From: Chloroflexota bacterium
Lineage (GTDB): Bacteria; Chloroflexota; Anaerolineae; Promineifilales; Promineifilaceae
DNA length: 8,584 bases
Assembly (NCBI GenBank): GCA_024223125.1
Contig: JAAEOP010000366.1
Location: 1-8,584 of the forward strand
Direction: 5' to 3'
Below the pieces are notes generated by a model, which saw only the letters and a program-made list of their open reading frames with translations, did no database searches and was not told the origin of the DNA. Shown here in pieces: positions 1,091-8,584 of the stretch (the stretch's first letter is position 1; the number at the start of each line of letters is the position of its first letter). A program made the translations under genes and the position numbers.

Positions 1091-4000
1091 ATGTCGTCCA
1101 AACGAACCTTTCTCCATACGCTTATTGCAGTTGTTGTGTTATTGGCTCAGATTGGGCAGCCGTTGGCTAATGCGTTAGGGGTTGCGCCCACGGCCGTAAA
1201 CCCTGCCCCAGCTACATTCAATGCCGGACAACAAACCCAACCAGATCGCCCCGATTGGATACGGCCGCAAACAGAACCCCGCCGCTCCCCCCAATTAATT
1301 CCCCCGGAACCGGGCTTACGGCCAGGTGAGATTCTTTCGCCTCAATCGGCCGGGCTAACGGCCGCAGCCCCCCCCCCCACCCCCTTCCCTTTTGGCAATA
1401 ACAACCTGGGGCAAACCTACAAAGACAGCAACAACATGGAAGACCATCCCGGCCGTCATTTTGCCGGGCCGGTTAACCTTATCAACGGCAATTACTTTTT
1501 AACCGTTGGTGACCATTTCTTTGTTGGTCAGGGGATTTCGGTGCAGTTTGCCCGCAGTTATAACCATCTGGATGCAAACAATCCGGGGCCATTGGGGAAT
1601 GGTTGGACGCACAGTTACAATGTCATTGCCCAAGAAACCATCCCCGACGCTGAAGTTGTTATTCGCAACAGTGATGGCAGTTTGCATGTGTACACCTCAG
1701 CCGACGGCGGCAATATCTGGGACCCGCCGCCCGGTATCTTCCGCACCCTCATCCACCCGAATATGCCCTTTTCCCCTTTCGAGATTCGTCATAAAAGTGG
1801 CATTGTAGAGACGTTTGACCCCAGCGGCCGTTACCAATCTATCCAAGACCGCAACGGCAATTTTGTGCAGATGAATTATGACGGTTCCAATCGTCTAGAG
1901 GCCGTTAATAGTTCCGACGGCCGTGCCCTGGACATCATCTACAGCCTTACCAATCCCAATCTCATCGAATCCGTCGTAGACCCCATCGGTCGGACTACCT
2001 CCTATAACTACGACGCCAACGGCAATCTAGCATTGGTAGATTATCCTGAAGGCACAGCCGCCACCTACACCTACGACGCTAACAATCGCCTGACCAGCTA
2101 CGATGATCCACGCCAGCCAGAAGGCAGCCGCCAGGTTACAAACGTTACTTACGACGGTCAGGATAGAGCGACCAATGTCGCCTTCAACGCGAACAGCTTT
2201 TATGACATTATTTATGACGTAACCGGGCCTCTTCTTGTAGAAGTCAACTGGCGGGACAACATCAGCAATGTCCATGAAATCATCTATGACAGCAGCAACT
2301 TTTTGGTATTGTCAGACGCCATCAATGTGTCTAGCTGCGGCTGCTTACAGGGTGAAGGGCTAAATTACACTCCCGATCATTTACTGCAAAGCAAAACAGA
2401 CGCCCATAACAACACAGTCATCTATGATTATGACGGGCTAGGCAACCTGATTACTATCGTCAGTCCTGACGGGGCGCGTACCGATTTTGCTTACGATCCC
2501 GCCCTGAGCAGTGTCATCTCCACTACCAATCCGGCCGGAGACAGCATTCAATACTTGTACGATGCTCGTGGCAACCTGCTGCAAGAAACACATCCGCTGG
2601 GACGCACGGCCGCCTACACCTACGATGCGGCCGGTAATCTACTTACCCAGACGGATGCCCTAAGTAATACCACCCGCTACACTTATGACGCCCTCGGTAA
2701 TCTCTTAACTATTTCCGATGCTTTAAGTAACACGACCAGCTTTGATTATGATCCCATCGGCCGTGTAACCAGCAAAACAGACCCTAACGGCGGCCTGACG
2801 ACTTATGCGTATGATGATGTAGATCGTCTATTGCTAGTGACAGACCCTCTCAGCGGTACCATTGACTATACGTATGACAGTCGGGGCAACCTCCTCACCC
2901 TGACTGACGCTGAGGGGCAAACCTTGAGCCACGCTTACGATTCGTTAGACAGAATTGTAACCGTGACCAATACGTTGGGAGCCACAACTTCCTATCAATA
3001 TGATGGTCTGGGCCGCCTGACACAGCGAACGGATGCCGATGGGGGGGCAACAACCTACTTCTACGATGAAGTTAGCCGGATGACACAGCGCAACTATAGC
3101 GACGGCCGCATAGACACCTTCGCTTATGATCGCGTTGGCAACCTGGCGGCTTATTCTGATGGCAGCATAACCAAGACCATTGGCTATGACGCCAACAGCC
3201 GGGCCATTACCTACACTTTAGACACGCCTACTTTTAGCAGCCCCACGCGCATCATTTATGGCTACGATTCCGTTGGCAACCGCAGCAGCGCCTTGCTGGA
3301 TGATGGCGCCTCCACCTGGACAACGACGTATGAATATGACAGCATCTACCGGCTGACGCGCACGATTGATGCAAACGGCCGCACCTGGGACACAACCTAT
3401 GACACGGCCGACCGGCGTACCAGCCTGACCCTGCCGGACAACAGCCATGTGGAGTATGATTACGACGGCCGTAACAATATGCTAGAGCTGCGCCAGTACG
3501 ATTCTGGCAACACGTTACAGCACACCTACAGCTTCACCTACGACGGCATCAATAACCGCGTCACTGAAAACGATGATGGGCTGCTCATTACCAACGCCTA
3601 TGACATGCTCAACCGCGTCATTCAAACTACTGCCGACAGCAGCATTTCCACCTTCACTTACGACGCTGTAGGCAACAGGTTAACGGCCGACGGCCCAGAA
3701 GGTCTCAACACGTTCATTTATGATGGGGCCAACCGCCTGCAAAGCAGCAACGACACGACCTACGCCTACGACAACATGGGGCGGCGCATTAGCCGCATCG
3801 GCCCCGCCGGGACCCATCAATATAACTATGATGGCGAAATGCGCCTGACCCAGTTCCAGCATGTAGACAGCGCCTTTGACGCTACCCTGACCTACGATGC
3901 CATGGGTGACCTGGTACGCAAACAAAACAGCGACGGCGACGATACCTTTATTCTGCGCGGCAACAGCCGTCTGGAAGCCGAACTGGACGCCAACGGCAAC

Positions 4001-6937
4001 CTGCAACGAACCTTCACCGCAGACACCGAAATCGTCTCTATGGATCTGGTCGGCCTCACACCTGTCACCGTAGATTTCCATTATGACGGCAGCGGCCGTG
4101 TCCGCCATGTTACCGACGCCGCCAGCGGCGACACGGTTGCCACCTATGGCATGGATCCCAGCCAAGATCAGGCCAACTTCTACAACCCCATTCGCATAAA
4201 TGGCCTCTACTACATTCCTGAAATTGGCCTTTATCTGCTGGGTGACGGTCAGTTCTGGGACCCCTTTGATGGACAGTTCCTATTCCGCTTCTGGCCCTGG
4301 GTTTTCTGGCCCTTTGGCCCCTTTAGCCCCTGGCGACCCATCTTCCGCTATTGGCCCTGGCCATGGCCGTGGGCCACACCCTGGGGCTGGCCGTGGCCGC
4401 GCCCCTGGCCTTTCCTTTGGCCCTGGGCTGGTGTTTGGGTACGGCCGTGGCTCGTCTACCCTATGTGGCCCTGGACATTCTTCTCCTGGCTGCCCTGGTG
4501 GTGGTGGTGGCATTGGTGGGGCTGGCCGATATGGGGACATTGGTGGTGGTGGCATCATTGGTGGTGGTGGAGCGACTGGTGGGGCTTTGGCTGGTGGTTC
4601 TGGGGCTGGTGGGGCTGGGGTTGGTGGCTTTGGGGCTGGTGGTGGTGGCCCTGGTACTGGTGGTGGCCCGGCTGGTGGATTTGGGGCTGGTGGCTCTGGT
4701 GGCTTTGGTGGCCCTGGTGGTGGTGGTGGCATTGGCACGGCTGGTGGTGGGGCTGGTGGTGGATTTGGGGCTGGTGGTGGTGGCCCTGGTGGTGCTGGCC
4801 ACCTCTGTGGGCACGGCCGCCGGATTATGGCGATGCGGCCGATCCAACCTACCCATCGCTGTTAAGCAGCAATGGCGCTCGCCATCTCAATACCAATCTG
4901 GAATGGTTAGGGCCGGCCGTTGACCGTGAATATAACGCCAACATTACTGACCTGGATCTGTTTGACGATGGTGTGACGGTAGACTTGGCTAACAGTGTTG
5001 TCATCTTTACCGTCAGCACGTCTGGTAGCTTGTTCCGTTACAGCGCGGCCGCGCCGGTAAATGTTCATGGCTGGATTGATTTGAACGGGGATGGCGATTG
5101 GGCTGACGGAGGCGAATTCGTTCTCAACTGGAGCGGTTATCCCGGTGATGGCACATGGCCGTTAGCCGCCCCATCTACAACGGTAACGGTTCCCATCGTT
5201 GTGCCTGCCAGTCTGCCGCAGCAAACATGGTCCCGCTTCCGGCTGGACTATGCCCAAAATGTGGAAAGCGTAACCGGTATGGCCCGGTATGGTGAGGTAG
5301 AAGATTACCGGCTGTACACCGCGCCCAACCCGCCCAGTTGGGGCGGCGCCGTCAATATCAACCGACTGTCACCGCTGGTCATCAGCTATGTGTCGGATAT
5401 GGTGACAAATACGGTCTCCATCGGCTTTACGCCAACGGTCAGTAATACGCTTGTCTGGAGTACGGTGTTGGATTCGATAGCTGCTAATACTGTGACCATC
5501 CACCATGCCCCCTTCACGCCGTTGACGACGTATTCCGTCACGGTCAGCGCCGGGCAAACAGTGGCTGGACATTGGATGCCAGCCAACGTGTACACCTTTA
5601 CATCGGCCGCTTTAGCGCCGGTTTATGGCGTGGTGTTGGGGCCAGATATGGCTCAGACTGGTTTGCCGGGCACGGCCGTAACCTACACTGTACCCATCAC
5701 CAACAGCGGCAACGTGACCGACACCTTTGACCTGACTGCCAGCGGCAACGGCTGGCCGGTCAATCTACCCTCGCCTGACATTACCTTAAGCGCGGGCGCC
5801 AGCGGCACATTCCAGGCGCTGGTCACTATTCCGGCTAACACTTTTGGCGGCACGATGGATATGGTTGCCATTACAGCTACATCCCAAAATTCGGTTACGG
5901 CCACAGATACGGCGAATCTAACAACAACGGCGCAAACGTTACTTGGGGTAACGATGTCGCCCGATATGGCTCAATCTAGTTTACCGGGCACGGCCGTTAC
6001 CTACACCCTCAATCTGACCAACAGTGGCAACGTAACTGATACGTATGACCTGACTCTGAATGGGAATGGCTGGGTAACAACTCCGTCAGACAGCAGCGTT
6101 ATGCTGACTCCTGGCAGCAGCGTGGCCGTAACAGTGCAGGTAGATATTCCCGGCGGAGCCAACGCGGGTGATATGGATAGTGTAACGGTGACAGCTACTT
6201 CGCAGGCAGATGTGAGCGTAACGGCCTCGGCCACATTGACCACGACGGCCACTTCTTATGCGGTTGCACTCTCGTCGGATATGGCTCAATCTGGGTTGCC
6301 GGGTACGGCAGTTACCTACACTGTCACCATCACCAACGCCGGTTTGCTGACAGATACGATTGATCTCACCCTCAGCGGCAATGGCTGGTCAACGACTGCG
6401 CCGCCCACAAGTGTAACGCTGGCAGTCGGGGACACGACGACGACACAAATCGTGGTTTTGATTCCGGCTGGGGCAGATGGCGGCAACATGGATACGGCTA
6501 CGATCATGGCTCAATCTCAAGGAGACAATACCCAAACGGCCGCAGCGAATCTGACAACAACGGCCGTATCCGTTTACGGTCTGACTGTTTCGGGGAATAT
6601 GGCTCAATCGGCTGCTGCGGGTACAACCGTAACTTACACAGTCAACATCAGTAACACCGGTAACATAACGGACACTTTTGATCTGGCAGTAAGCGGTAAT
6701 ATGTGGCCGACAGCGCCTATGACTACAAGTGTAGCTCTGGCTCGTGGAAGCAGCACGGCCGTTACCTTTGTCGTCGCTATTCCGAGCAGCGCCACGGATG
6801 GGGAGATAGATACGGCCGTCATCACAGCCACTTCACAAGGAGACAACAGCCAAACGGCCGCAACGCAACTGACAACGACAGCCGTTGTGACCTCATCTGG
6901 GTTTACGATTTATCTGCCGGCGATACTCAGGGATTAA
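1091..6937 (+). CDS. Giant secreted YD-repeat (RHS-like) protein with a tryptophan-rich insert and Ig-like repeats
   Basis: A 1948-residue exported protein. Residues 1-29 are a signal peptide (SSKR, hydrophobic core, PLANALG); 30-115 are a proline-rich linker; about 121-200 is a DUF6531-type head (GPVNLINGNYFL, LGNGWTHSYN); about 265-1020 holds roughly 27 YD repeats of the Y-T-Y-D-x-x-G-N-L type that build the RHS cocoon, with a cysteine pair (C416, C418) in the known SCGC spot. LYYIPEIGLYLLGDG and FWDPFDGQFL (1055-1064) are degenerate forms of the RHS core end RYYDPxTGRFL. A tryptophan-rich tract follows at 1068-1240, then a GEVEDY domain (about 1245-1410), an Ig-like domain (about 1413-1513), four Ig-like repeats (1512-1937) and the tail IYLPAILRD. 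No toxin domain and no neighbouring immunity gene are seen, so a surface or adhesive role is as likely as a toxin role. The frame is continuous across the tract. Confidence 0.93.
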   Translation: MSSKRTFLHTLIAVVVLLAQIGQPLANALGVAPTAVNPAPATFNAGQQTQPDRPDWIRPQTEPRRSPQLIPPEPGLRPGEILSPQSAGLTAAAPPPTPFPFGNNNLGQTYKDSNNMEDHPGRHFAGPVNLINGNYFLTVGDHFFVGQGISVQFARSYNHLDANNPGPLGNGWTHSYNVIAQETIPDAEVVIRNSDGSLHVYTSADGGNIWDPPPGIFRTLIHPNMPFSPFEIRHKSGIVETFDPSGRYQSIQDRNGNFVQMNYDGSNRLEAVNSSDGRALDIIYSLTNPNLIESVVDPIGRTTSYNYDANGNLALVDYPEGTAATYTYDANNRLTSYDDPRQPEGSRQVTNVTYDGQDRATNVAFNANSFYDIIYDVTGPLLVEVNWRDNISNVHEIIYDSSNFLVLSDAINVSSCGCLQGEGLNYTPDHLLQSKTDAHNNTVIYDYDGLGNLITIVSPDGARTDFAYDPALSSVISTTNPAGDSIQYLYDARGNLLQETHPLGRTAAYTYDAAGNLLTQTDALSNTTRYTYDALGNLLTISDALSNTTSFDYDPIGRVTSKTDPNGGLTTYAYDDVDRLLLVTDPLSGTIDYTYDSRGNLLTLTDAEGQTLSHAYDSLDRIVTVTNTLGATTSYQYDGLGRLTQRTDADGGATTYFYDEVSRMTQRNYSDGRIDTFAYDRVGNLAAYSDGSITKTIGYDANSRAITYTLDTPTFSSPTRIIYGYDSVGNRSSALLDDGASTWTTTYEYDSIYRLTRTIDANGRTWDTTYDTADRRTSLTLPDNSHVEYDYDGRNNMLELRQYDSGNTLQHTYSFTYDGINNRVTENDDGLLITNAYDMLNRVIQTTADSSISTFTYDAVGNRLTADGPEGLNTFIYDGANRLQSSNDTTYAYDNMGRRISRIGPAGTHQYNYDGEMRLTQFQHVDSAFDATLTYDAMGDLVRKQNSDGDDTFILRGNSRLEAELDANGNLQRTFTADTEIVSMDLVGLTPVTVDFHYDGSGRVRHVTDAASGDTVATYGMDPSQDQANFYNPIRINGLYYIPEIGLYLLGDGQFWDPFDGQFLFRFWPWVFWPFGPFSPWRPIFRYWPWPWPWATPWGWPWPRPWPFLWPWAGVWVRPWLVYPMWPWTFFSWLPWWWWWHWWGWPIWGHWWWWHHWWWWSDWWGFGWWFWGWWGWGWWLWGWWWWPWYWWWPGWWIWGWWLWWLWWPWWWWWHWHGWWWGWWWIWGWWWWPWWCWPPLWARPPDYGDAADPTYPSLLSSNGARHLNTNLEWLGPAVDREYNANITDLDLFDDGVTVDLANSVVIFTVSTSGSLFRYSAAAPVNVHGWIDLNGDGDWADGGEFVLNWSGYPGDGTWPLAAPSTTVTVPIVVPASLPQQTWSRFRLDYAQNVESVTGMARYGEVEDYRLYTAPNPPSWGGAVNINRLSPLVISYVSDMVTNTVSIGFTPTVSNTLVWSTVLDSIAANTVTIHHAPFTPLTTYSVTVSAGQTVAGHWMPANVYTFTSAALAPVYGVVLGPDMAQTGLPGTAVTYTVPITNSGNVTDTFDLTASGNGWPVNLPSPDITLSAGASGTFQALVTIPANTFGGTMDMVAITATSQNSVTATDTANLTTTAQTLLGVTMSPDMAQSSLPGTAVTYTLNLTNSGNVTDTYDLTLNGNGWVTTPSDSSVMLTPGSSVAVTVQVDIPGGANAGDMDSVTVTATSQADVSVTASATLTTTATSYAVALSSDMAQSGLPGTAVTYTVTITNAGLLTDTIDLTLSGNGWSTTAPPTSVTLAVGDTTTTQIVVLIPAGADGGNMDTATIMAQSQGDNTQTAAANLTTTAVSVYGLTVSGNMAQSAAAGTTVTYTVNISNTGNITDTFDLAVSGNMWPTAPMTTSVALARGSSTAVTFVVAIPSSATDGEIDTAVITATSQGDNSQTAATQLTTTAVVTSSGFTIYLPAILRD
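1368..1378 (+). repeat. C11 homopolymer inside the YD-repeat gene
   Basis: Eleven consecutive C residues code for part of A93-P-P-P-T97, just after the signal peptide and linker. By hand translation, losing one C would bring a TAA at 1500-1502 into frame and gaining one C a TAA at 1399-1401. Either change abolishes the protein. Such runs are typical slippage sites, so this is a candidate on/off switch. It is also a place where an assembly error would matter. Confidence 0.6.
4292..4810 (+). repeat. TGG-rich low-complexity tract coding a tryptophan-rich segment
   Basis: In the gene frame this codes residues 1068-1240, with about 85 tryptophans in 173 residues by hand count; residues 1134-1236 have about 65 in 103, including runs of four and five W. 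The first half alternates W with P, F and R (YWPWPWPW); the second mixes W with G, H, P, L, I. Non-Trp residues use varied synonymous codons (Pro CCC, CCG, CCA, CCT; Gly GGC, GGT, GGA; Leu CTG, CTT, CTC), which argues for selection on the protein rather than simple triplet expansion. Partial duplications such as TTTGGGGCTGGTGGTGGTGG appear near 4635 and 4764. Nearly all six frames are open here as a by-product of the low complexity. Confidence 0.85.
5624..6901 (+). repeat. Four tandem 106-residue Ig-like repeats (coding)
   Basis: Within the YD-repeat gene, four consecutive units carry DMAQ or NMAQ at residues 1519, 1625, 1730 and 1836, a period of 105-106 residues. Shared landmarks are MAQSGLPGTAVTYTV, ITNSGNVTDTFDL, SGNGW, a VxIP strand, TATSQ and a closing LTTTA. 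They resemble NEW3/CARDB-like beta-sandwich modules of bacterial secreted proteins. The octamer TATGGCTC recurs at the head of each unit. Units have diverged, with the fourth most different (NMAQSAAAGT). Confidence 0.8.
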
Positions 6938-6941
6938 AAAA

Positions 6942-6987
6942 GAGATTGGAGATTGGGAGATTGTGGGAATCTCCAATCTCCAATCTC
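6942..6987 (-). terminator. Intrinsic terminator of the DUF58 unit, built from heptamer repeats
   Basis: The arm GAGATTGGAGATTGGGAGATT (6942-6962) pairs with 6968-6987 over 20 bp with one bulged base around the loop GTGGG. Read on the minus strand, the stem is followed at once by six T (complement of 6936-6941), as in an intrinsic terminator, 10 nt past the DUF58 stop. In the plus direction no T run follows, so it is less convincing as a terminator for the YD-repeat gene. Both arms are tandem copies of the heptamer GGAGATT or its complement. Confidence 0.7.
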
Positions 6988-6997
6988 CAAAAAGTTT

Positions 6998-7879
6998 CTA
7001 CTTCACCACACCCTTTACCCGCAGCGTTTGCAAAATCAGCTTTTCCCAGGACATGTCGGTGGTAAGGGGGATGTAATGGACGTGACGGTTGGCGCAAGTG
7101 GCGGCAATATCGTTTTGCCAGCTTTGCAGCCGGCTTTTGTATAAATCTAAGGTGGGCGGGTCCAGGGTGATTTCTGCATCCTGGCTCGTTTCCACATCTA
7201 CCAGTTTCAGGTCGCCAGAGACGGGCGGATCAACTTCATCCTGGCTGAGAATGTGAATGAAGCCGACTTCATAACCACGCGCTTGCAAAGCGGTCAACCC
7301 ATCCAGGTAGCCATTGGGGGAGAGTAAATCAGAGAAGAGAAAGAGCAAGCCGGGCCGACGGCCGACCAACGCAAAATTCCTTAATGATAAATTGACATCC
7401 GTGATGCCGCCTGCTTCCCCGCTTTCCAAAAATTGAAACAAACGTAAGGAATTCCCCTGCCCGCGATAAGGCCCCCAGGTGCGGTCATTGTGGCTGTTGA
7501 GCAAAGTAGCCGTCAACAAATCGCCGGTGGTCAGACTGATATGGCCTAAAGCCCCTGCCAGTTTGAGGGCGTAATGAAGTTTGTTCTCGTCCCCCTCTCC
7601 CCAATCCATACTGCTGCTGCTGTCTACCAGCAGATGGACGGCTAAATCTTCTTCTTCTTCGAGGAGCTTGATAAACGGCCGTTCCAACCGGGCATATACA
7701 TTCCAATCCAGCCGCCGCAAATCATCTCCCTTCGTGTAATTGCGGTAATCGGCAAACTCAATGGACGTACCCCGTTTTGTGCTGCGCCGGTCGCCCTTCA
7801 TCTGCCCCACCCGCACCTTATCGGCGATGAGGGTTAGTTGTTCCAGTTTACGAAGCGTGGATTCGTTGAAGATGTTCAT
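6998..7879 (-). CDS. DUF58 domain protein with VWA-type metal site
   Basis: A 293-residue cytosolic protein of the DUF58 family, which usually works with MoxR-type AAA+ ATPases in a poorly defined chaperone or maturation role. Signature residues are clear: FADYRNYTKGDDLRRLDWN (42-60) and VYARLERPFIKLLEEEEDL (61-79), the family core, followed by a VWA-like fold with a MIDAS-type D-x-S-x-S at D86-S88-S90, a T160-D161 pair and an acidic FSD ending at D184. Length is normal for short DUF58 proteins lacking N-terminal membrane segments. The start at 7879 has no good Shine-Dalgarno but lies 3 nt after the stop of a small membrane protein gene, suggesting translational coupling. No MoxR gene is in the window. 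The gene converges on the YD-repeat gene with a 60-bp gap that holds the terminator. Confidence 0.92.
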   Translation of the reverse strand: MNIFNESTLRKLEQLTLIADKVRVGQMKGDRRSTKRGTSIEFADYRNYTKGDDLRRLDWNVYARLERPFIKLLEEEEDLAVHLLVDSSSSMDWGEGDENKLHYALKLAGALGHISLTTGDLLTATLLNSHNDRTWGPYRGQGNSLRLFQFLESGEAGGITDVNLSLRNFALVGRRPGLLFLFSDLLSPNGYLDGLTALQARGYEVGFIHILSQDEVDPPVSGDLKLVDVETSQDAEITLDPPTLDLYKSRLQSWQNDIAATCANRHVHYIPLTTDMSWEKLILQTLRVKGVVK

Positions 7880-7882
7880 TCG

Positions 7883-8020
7883 CTATTTCATTAAGTCATT
7901 AATTTTAGGATAAACAACGCCAGTTGTGGGGCCAAGCAATGTTAACACAACGATGACAAGAACGGCCGTGACAATCAACGCTAACGCCAACCAAAATAAC
8001 CATCTCCATTTTCCTTTCAT
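7883..8020 (-). CDS. Small single-pass membrane protein upstream of DUF58
   Basis: A 45-residue ORF starting MKGKWRWLFWLALALIVTAV. A basic N-terminus (K2, K4, R6) precedes about 22 hydrophobic residues, then a short tail GPTTGVVYPKINDLMK. This is a classic one-helix membrane protein with the N-terminus predicted inside by the positive-inside rule. Its TAG stop is separated from the DUF58 ATG by three bases (CGA), so the two genes are probably one operon with coupled translation. A GGAGAAAGG purine stretch ends 7 nt before the ATG. I do not recognise a family. A role as membrane partner or anchor for the soluble DUF58 protein is a guess from context. Short length makes chance possible, but the hydrophobic pattern and tight spacing argue against that. 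Confidence 0.65.
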   Translation of the reverse strand: MKGKWRWLFWLALALIVTAVLVIVVLTLLGPTTGVVYPKINDLMK

Positions 8021-8052
8021 CGGGACGCCTTTCTCCAAAACTTAGTTTTATC

Positions 8053-8145
8053 GTAACTATACAGGTGCGACGCACTTTTCCCAGAGTAATGTCAATGCCG
8101 CTGCTCTTTGCAAGTGCGTCGCACCTCTGGAAGCTGAATAGTTAC
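8053..8145. mobile_element. MITE-like inverted-repeat element, copy 2
   Basis: A 93-bp non-coding element. The left end GTAACTATACAG (8053-8064) matches the complement of the right end CTGAATAGTTAC (8134-8145) at 11 of 12 bases. An inner perfect 15-bp inverted repeat pairs AGGTGCGACGCACTT (8063-8077) with AAGTGCGTCGCACCT (8112-8126). It is flanked on both sides by the exact octamer GTTTTATC (8045-8052 and 8146-8153), a clear 8-bp target duplication. The termini are those of copy 1 but the inner palindrome is different. GTAA ends with 8-bp duplications recall IS66-family elements, so an IS66-type transposase acting in trans is a reasonable inference. It lies upstream of the small membrane protein and DUF58 genes. 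Confidence 0.8.
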
Positions 8146-8271
8146 GTTTTATCATCAATTTTTTCCGTGAGTCATTTGTTGTTCAAATGAATCAACACAT
8201 TTATTTGAAACAGCCATCCTATCAATGCAATTATGACTGCATCACTTAAAGATTTGTCAGTCAATCAGTAG
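8146..8271. other. Intergenic sequence between MITE copy 2 and the Nudix gene
   Basis: AT-rich, no ORF that I can support. The only structure is a weak imperfect hairpin around 8171-8193 (TGTTGTTC against GAATCAACA) without a following T run on either strand. I see no convincing promoter for the DUF58 unit here. Confidence 0.3.
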
Positions 8272-8584
8272 TCACTCGACTGGCAGAAGCTGATAATGAG
8301 CCAGCAAATCATCTACAAAGACGCCACCTCCGTACACAAGCTGTGTTTTTAATGATGCGGTCAACGCCAACCAGCAATAAGCGTAACGCAGCCCGTTGTC
8401 GGCGTCATGGCTGTGGACGATGTGGACAAACGTTTCGGGTAAGGGTTGGGTGGTTTCTAACAGAAAGAAGTGTTGCTTTTCATTTTGCCAGGAGACGGAA
8501 CCAAGTTGTTTGATGAGACGCACGGCCGTAATGCCTGATTCTTCTTCAATTTCGCGCAGGACGGCCGTTTCCCGCGTCTCCCCC
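8272..8584 (-). CDS. Nudix hydrolase, 5' end beyond the window
   Basis: The frame stays open to the right edge. The visible part, about 104 residues, begins inside the Nudix box: GETRETAVLREIEEESGI carries the R-E-U-x-E-E-x-G-U metal-binding core exactly (R, E, I, E, E, E, S, G, I). The rest fits the family's C-terminal half: VRLIKQLGSVSWQ, a HFFLLET strand, then a HIVHSHDADNGLRYAYCWL segment like the usual GE-D-x-G-x-x-F-x-Y-x-W motif. Nudix enzymes hydrolyse nucleoside diphosphates linked to another group; the substrate cannot be told from this fragment. The GTG at 8523 is an internal valine codon, not the start. The gene is separated from the small membrane protein gene by 251 bp including a MITE-like element, so co-transcription is uncertain. 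Confidence 0.88.
   Translation of the reverse strand, partial: GETRETAVLREIEEESGITAVRLIKQLGSVSWQNEKQHFFLLETTQPLPETFVHIVHSHDADNGLRYAYCWLALTASLKTQLVYGGGVFVDDLLAHYQLLPVE

Follow-up and report, generated by a model that had tools for sequence, protein, structure and literature searches.

Locus and protein layout

The stretch of DNA analyzed here (the window, 8,584 nucleotides of the Chloroflexota contig JAAEOP010000366.1) carries on its forward strand a gene for a 1948-residue protein of the RHS type, with an internal tract in which about half of the residues are tryptophan (Trp). A single open frame leads from a signal-like N terminus through RHS repeats to the Trp-rich tract, and from there to a GEVED domain and Ig-like repeats. 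The tract is real, is selected at the protein level, is conserved in place, and lacks cleavage motifs. The host protein is a variant form of an established type, and no known family accounts for the tract. The features of the gene are as follows (AF2, AlphaFold2; pLDDT, predicted local distance difference test).

1091..6937, + strand: whole gene (signal peptide, YD shell, Trp-rich tract, GEVED, Ig-like repeats), 1948 amino acids
1091..1180, + strand: likely Sec signal peptide, a positive N terminus and then a hydrophobic stretch (by eye and from homologue N termini; end approximate)
1442..4288, + strand: RHS/YD shell and most of the C-terminal Rhs-associated core, residues 118-1066
4184..4288, + strand: junction, derived RHS core end, residues 1032-1066, NPIRINGLYYIPEIGLYLLGDGQFWDPFDGQFLFR (YDP of the controls is YIP here; middle WDP kept; next xDP lost)
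4292..4495, + strand: N-terminal half of the Trp-rich tract, residues 1068-1135 (Trp/Pro alternation, period of two; best-conserved part)
4496..4810, + strand: C-terminal half of the Trp-rich tract, residues 1136-1240 (66 Trp in 105 residues; Trp runs interrupted by G, P, H)
4820..5314, + strand: PDYGDA...GEVEDY segment, in which the GEVED domain lies (Pfam match at residues 1324-1408; AF2 block pLDDT 62-89 over about residues 1290-1409, low before)
5738..6895, + strand: Ig-like repeats, with FixG_C, Ig_VWA7, NPCBM_assoc, and choice-of-anchor T matches (approximate boundaries)
6908..6934, + strand: C-terminal IYLPAILRD (found with a loose regular expression)

The YD/RHS repeats match PF05593 (E value of 4e-74, ten stretches) and also TIGR01643, and the GEVED domain was recognized by Pfam downstream of the tract (E value of 1.5e-9). 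The Pfam matches of the window protein include no part of a type VI secretion system (T6SS), no EGF repeats, no Tox-GHH, and no domain of the FN-plug or NHL kind. An initial annotation of the window had placed the tract at residues 1068-1240 (4292-4810) and counted about 85 Trp among its 173 residues, with runs of four and five Trp. The coordinates are exact and the count is 85, and the landmarks it named, FWDPFDG from residue 1055 and GEVEDY at 1401 (with PDYGDA at 1244), do lie in one open frame. Tryptophan is the rarest and costliest amino acid, and the remainder of the 1948-residue protein holds 20. In the N-terminal half of the tract (1068-1135), Trp and Pro take turns, and the period of two is clear; the C-terminal half (1136-1240) is 63% Trp and shows no clear period. 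Charged residues are few, with 4 Lys/Arg and 1 Asp/Glu among the 173.

To our knowledge, no conserved domain that is nearly half tryptophan has been described, and the literature matches listed contain no description of a conserved Trp-rich domain of this kind. The initial annotation had said as much, and the databases agree: the tract region has no Pfam or NCBIfam match at E values up to 1 in any of the 19 family members introduced below, no PHROG match for the window tract, and no PDB sequence match. In passages of PMC3482391, tryptophan is named once, for the W-TIP toxin domain.

The tract as a selected protein domain

With residues 960-1330 as the query, 39 hits were obtained among about 5.8 billion proteins, 19 of them with the tract (the window protein included). 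A second search started from P0013, a member of the other subgroup, and recovered exactly these 19 among 30 candidates, and a profile search restricted to proteins of about 120-380 residues added one fragment (P0040) from 988 candidates. The tract is complete in 18 homologues and partial in the fragment; in the window protein and these 18, Trp makes up 39-48% of the W-dense segment, which spans 152-191 residues. The hits from P0020 on are GEVED-only, and the five that we read among the 20 hits lacking the tract (P0020-P0024; P0025-P0039 were taken from the hit table) have no Trp-rich tract. Hence, the tract is rare, and all 20 cases found occur in RHS proteins. Four of the proteins have a named organism (P0003, P0004, P0013, and P0016), in each case a Chloroflexota/Anaerolineae assembly. 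By genome, the tract occurs in at least 1 of 400 in the phylum, at least 1 of 396 in the class, and at least 1 of 56 in the order; these sets overlap, the genome is the same one each time, and the counts are lower bounds, with 7 candidates scored per genome in the large sets. RHS repeats occur in 32 of 55 genomes of the order. The tract was not found in the order of genome G460 (2 genomes). The contig scan for the tract covers the matches listed, so that members may have been missed; a degenerate TGGCCN pattern matched 56 of 392 genomes, including one known tract holder, and was not used. We also considered a phage origin, and 600 candidate stretches of viral contigs held no relative.

Such a composition could in principle be an artefact, either of a Gly-rich or Val/Leu-rich tract flanked by two frame errors that cancel each other or of a recent expansion of TGG triplets: TGG repeats are abundant in the DNA, and the other two frames are also of low complexity and mostly open. 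We regard this explanation as extremely improbable. The initial annotation had named homologues reading the same DNA in another frame as evidence that would refute it; instead, the 18 relatives read the tract in the same frame, which together with the tests of frame rules out a frame or assembly error. In the window, the +1 frame gives a Gly-rich reading in which T stands before 85 of the 86 Gly codons, a bias that supports the Trp frame, since only the Trp codon imposes this T. Stop codons interrupt the other frames: the +1 frame has one in P0003, and the +2 frame has stops in both genes, the window included (one and two).

The substitution pattern points the same way. All substitution tests concern one gene pair, the window gene and P0003 (locus L001), and stop codons were omitted from the +2-frame count. 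Over 170 aligned codons (residues 1068-1250), the rates of nonsynonymous (dN) and synonymous (dS) substitution in the Trp frame are 0.22 and 0.99, a ratio of about 0.22, which is the test of selection across the tract that had been asked for; in the other two frames the ratio is about 1.1-1.3 (dN/dS of 0.30/0.24 in +1 and 0.28/0.26 in +2). A separate alignment of 161 codons gave a dN of 0.21 and a dS of 1.01. Trp stands in either protein in 83 columns and is retained in 66, and every one of the 17 exchanges needs two or three base changes. The 16 exchanges listed for the 161-codon alignment are with Phe, Tyr, His, Leu, Pro, Gly, and Asn. Synonymous changes occur in 20 of 47 identical codons other than those for Trp and Met, in line with the selection on amino acids suggested in the initial annotation. 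A TGG expansion is also ruled out, given the conserved Trp positions and non-Trp residues and these synonymous changes.

The alignment of the 19 proteins, from which the fragment was omitted, has 81 majority-Trp columns in the tract, 33 of them invariant (85 and 34 with the junction included). Non-Trp residues fill 144 of 1503 cells in the 81 columns (169 of 1579 with the junction included): Phe, Tyr, or His account for 46 of them, residues reachable by a single base change (Arg, Gly, Leu, Ser, Cys) for 68, and other residues for 30. One-base replacements are thus common across the family, unlike in the pair above. From the homologues, the invariant Trp columns, the dN/dS ratio, and the absence of one-base exchanges between the window gene and P0003, we conclude that the Trp-rich tract is a selected protein domain and not a frameshift, an assembly error, or a triplet expansion. 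As a detail of its variation, the tract of P0003 finishes in a run of ten prolines, unlike that of the other members.

Junction, shell, and position of the tract

The tract follows what the initial annotation had called a degenerate RHS core end. The junction is indeed a derived form of this motif: the first YDP has become YIP, the middle WDP is kept, and the next xDP is lost. For comparison, ordinary core ends from the same order read YDP..G.., YDP..GRF.S.DP, and Y.Y..NNP..xDP.G (four distinct controls, L005, L006, L009, and L022). These come from 25 control RHS loci (L007, L008, and L031 were left out), among which core ends are identical in L005/L025, L009/L030, and L006/L032; 18 of the 25 do not show the pattern, many being pieces that need not reach the core end. 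In the tract family, the Asp of the first YDP is Ile, Phe, or Leu, and the Asp column of xDP, aligned with one control core (the one alignment that includes the fragment), holds F, Y, A, C, or I. DPxGL is absent from the 120 residues before WPWPWPW in 19 of 19 proteins, as is DPxG from all 19 tracts; DPxGL occurs elsewhere in P0014 (813) and P0017 (1431), and a Y.Y..NP-like match lies in the tract of P0003 only, as WVFWPFNP. The tract starts at the place expected for the penultimate DP motif, so that this motif and the final one are both missing, and on this sequence pattern it can be said to replace the RHS core end together with its predicted self-cleavage motifs. Rhs1 has two DPLGL motifs, spaced 17 residues apart, ahead of its cleavage site, with the catalytic Asp in the second (PMC8636562). 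From the spacing, we infer that the two lost motifs correspond to this pair. The fold alignment agrees: the confident end of the model (model residue 955, residue 1072 of the protein) pairs with Rhs1 residue 1322, and the catalytic Asp of Rhs1 is residue 1338. The corresponding alignment with RhsA starts at model residue 4 (chain residue 299), just before the RhsA cork domain (305-386).

Mean pairwise identity is 0.71 in the tract and 0.44 in the shell (18 proteins, 153 pairs; the N-terminally short P0007 was left out here and from the shell profiles) and 0.55 in the part after the tract (17 proteins, 136 pairs; P0019 was also omitted from this part and from the correlation). When Trp-Trp cells are excluded, the tract and the post-tract part are equal (0.52 each), and the N-terminal half of the tract reaches 0.66. 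With the same exclusion, tract and shell distances of 17 proteins correlate closely (Mantel r of 0.94, 0 of 2000 permutations as high), so that the tract appears to descend with its shell, with no sign of the exchange seen in RHS toxins. The proposal that the tract simply replaces the variable toxin of RHS proteins is not supported: the tract is internal, is more conserved than the shell and the post-tract part, and tracks the shell. Sequence follows it in the window protein and in all 18 homologues (the fragment ends inside the tract). Both its variation with the shell and the further, putatively extracellular sequence behind it argue against a swapped, released toxin. A polymorphic toxin is likewise not supported, given the missing DPxGL at the junction, the internal position, and the correlation above.

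The tract could still act on membranes. A Trp/Pro-rich, mildly basic tract could insert into the membrane interfaces of neighboring cells in the manner of Trp-rich antimicrobial peptides, the shell shielding it until exposure. Lys/Arg outnumber Asp/Glu in 19 of 19 tracts (14 of which have no acidic residue), and the summed interfacial transfer energy is strongly favorable (-158 kcal/mol on the Wimley-White scale). Indolicidin is a short Trp/Pro-rich peptide active on membranes (PMC6017362), and a bacterial teneurin-like protein has at its C terminus a hydrophobic domain that permeabilizes Escherichia coli when exported (PMC13018210). We nevertheless consider such a payload unlikely, since the tract is not C-terminal in any of the 19 proteins, lacks DPxG, is conserved and tracks its shell, and is followed in the window by no immunity gene, while the N terminus looks Sec-type and the Pfam matches include no T6SS part.

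The explanation that we favor, at a probability we would put just short of even, is that the tract is a conserved structural core inside a secreted, teneurin-like YD shell of Chloroflexota, which it fills, with the chain left uncleaved. The Rhs-associated core closes the shell, and the domain, placed where this core ends, would lie inside, like the internal linker of teneurins. Some 85 indoles could pack there densely, filling the hollow shell with a hydrophobic core and sealing it, and the uncleaved chain would exit to the outer GEVED and Ig-like domains. The role of the tract would then be structural: stiffening the shell, sealing it, or holding it as a scaffold for surface display or adhesion. 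The position inside, the uncut chain, and the structural role are all inferred. The shell fold is predicted with good confidence; the model is a cage-like beta shell and agrees with the solved structures of Rhs cages and teneurins. Beyond the core, the chain of Rhs and TcC proteins remains within the shell (PMC8636562, PMC8765631). The internal linker of teneurins comprises 126 residues at and beyond the core end; it packs inside and closes gaps before passing out through the wall (PMC5851990). The tract occupies the same place in the order of parts. Its size is also suggestive. We estimate 25.0 kDa and about 30,500 cubic Angstrom (from residue volumes), compared with a cavity of about 28,000 cubic Angstrom in Rhs1 (PMC8636562) and 130 cubic nm enclosed by the Ten2 shell, 44 of them unoccupied (PMC5851990). 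The tract is far below the Ten2 volume, and this size, near that of the Rhs1 cavity, together with the teneurin-like order of parts, favors a Trp-rich filling with an exit path. The initial annotation had suggested a payload packed in the YD shell; a real and selected segment at the RHS core end survives from this, with the inside as its most likely position; a simple replacement of the variable toxin is not supported.

Several observations weigh against a filled, uncut shell. The tract slightly exceeds the Rhs1 cavity in volume and lies at the limit of less than 25 kDa stated for a folded domain in it (PMC8636562). The structure prediction that had been called for modeled the shell well and gave no usable structure for the tract, with block pLDDT of 24-38 and 29-51 in two predictions (19 sequences), and at such values its position inside or outside is not visible. 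That the trimmed fold alignments end at residues 1071-1075 is in part due to the removal of the low-confidence tract, and for many of the Rhs fold matches the root mean square deviation is 10-12 Angstrom. Some cutting is conceivable, since 15 of 19 proteins still have the middle WDP (two have WEP, one WDY, and one WDL, the acid being retained in all 19) and a looser DPxxGL form stands in the junction of P0002-P0004. Around the YD motif, the shells of 18 family members are not clearly more hydrophobic than those of the 25 control loci, and a shell lining co-adapted to the Trp cargo was dropped on this comparison. Finally, in the most distant member, P0019, a long Thr-Pro-rich repeat linker replaces GEVED after residue 1228, immediately behind the tract.

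Trp is also found within some shells. One subgroup has 1.8% Trp in its shell versus 0.9%, its Trp-rich loop counted in; none of the 25 control loci exceeds 4 Trp per 40 residues. This second, short loop lies at about residues 420-488 of P0008-P0018 (11 of 11 of the subgroup; P0007 lacks the region) and has the form GWWWGKWWWWHP..WWLL, varied in P0010 and P0011. Its counterpart in the window (about 2320-2405) and in P0003 is a Cys-containing stretch (SCGC).

The tract could instead lie outside, as an exposed adhesive or glycan-binding module, with indole faces stacking on polysaccharide or joining cells and with the shell and the Ig-like repeats as a stalk. The protein is secreted and has GEVED and Ig-like domains, teneurins share the shell and are adhesion receptors (PMC5851990), and Trp at every second residue in the N-terminal half would set the indoles on one face of an extended strand. 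However, the C-terminal half, with its very high Trp content and near absence of charge, would seem ill-suited to a soluble exposed surface unless buried or membrane-bound, and the tract matches no Pfam family, carbohydrate-binding ones included. We think it improbable that the tract works in this way.

Genomic surroundings and known systems

The gene that follows the RHS-like gene is a convergent DUF58 gene, and the window has no candidate immunity gene directly downstream. At locus L001, the next open reading frame of at least 90 amino acids is also convergent and has a Nudix-box-like stretch by eye (two of the 19 loci were inspected for downstream genes). Just past the stop codon (6942-6990), repeated GAGATTG units are followed by inverted AATCTCC units; lying between two convergent genes, they may form a long hairpin that serves as terminator for both. 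Upstream, on the reverse strand (57-564), a pair of DUF433 and DUF5615 (PIN-like) genes resembles a toxin-antitoxin module. The palindrome ACGGCCGT occurs 13 times within and between genes (1190-8568), versus 0.14 expected from shuffles, and is perhaps a genome-wide octamer comparable to HIP1 of cyanobacteria. No structured RNA was matched in the window by Rfam at the gathering threshold. At the C terminus, 16 of 19 family members have a motif like (Y/F)LPL(I/V).(R/K) under a loose regular expression, the exceptions being P0003, P0010, and P0019; the motif may serve in sorting or anchoring. In P0010, the last 25 residues or so look by eye like a dockerin or EF-hand type repeat, replacing this motif.

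In its broadest form, our proposal is of a new principle of protein construction, in which about 85 conserved Trp, solidly packed, take up the interior of a hollow YD shell. A domain of some 45% Trp under selection, unlike known families, would have made of a toxin capsule a filled device of Chloroflexota with a structural or surface role. We advance this tentatively, as somewhat less probable than its opposite. If folded, the tract marks an extreme of the protein composition open to selection and tests the packing of so many indoles. It suggests a route by which the toxin slot of RHS proteins could become a fixed part, parallel to the toxin-to-receptor change proposed for teneurins, and makes the filling of a YD shell in the absence of a toxin a directly testable question.

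The tract recalls several known systems, each in part. The Trp-rich antimicrobial peptides indolicidin and tritrpticin are also rich in Trp, with Pro and basic residues; the likeness is compositional only, since they are peptides of 13 residues and the tract is a conserved domain of 173 residues inside a 1948-residue protein. Secreted proteins with GEVED share with the window protein the domain that here follows the tract; the five read have no Trp-rich tract. The Rhs effectors of T6SS (RhsA 7q97, Rhs1 7pq5, Tse5, Tse15, and RhsP) have in common with this family the shell fold, the YD repeats, and the cargo slot at the core end. They differ from it in that here the junction and the tract lack DPxGL, the cargo is internal and not seen swapped, and the N terminus is Sec-like. 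GEVED and Ig-like repeats set the window protein apart from teneurins, as does the absence of Pfam matches to EGF repeats and Tox-GHH; we know of no Trp-rich teneurin linker. The order of parts in teneurins and bacterial teneurin-like proteins, a YD shell, an internal linker after the Rhs-associated core, and an outer C-terminal domain, agrees with that of the window protein, in which the tract would be the counterpart of the linker.

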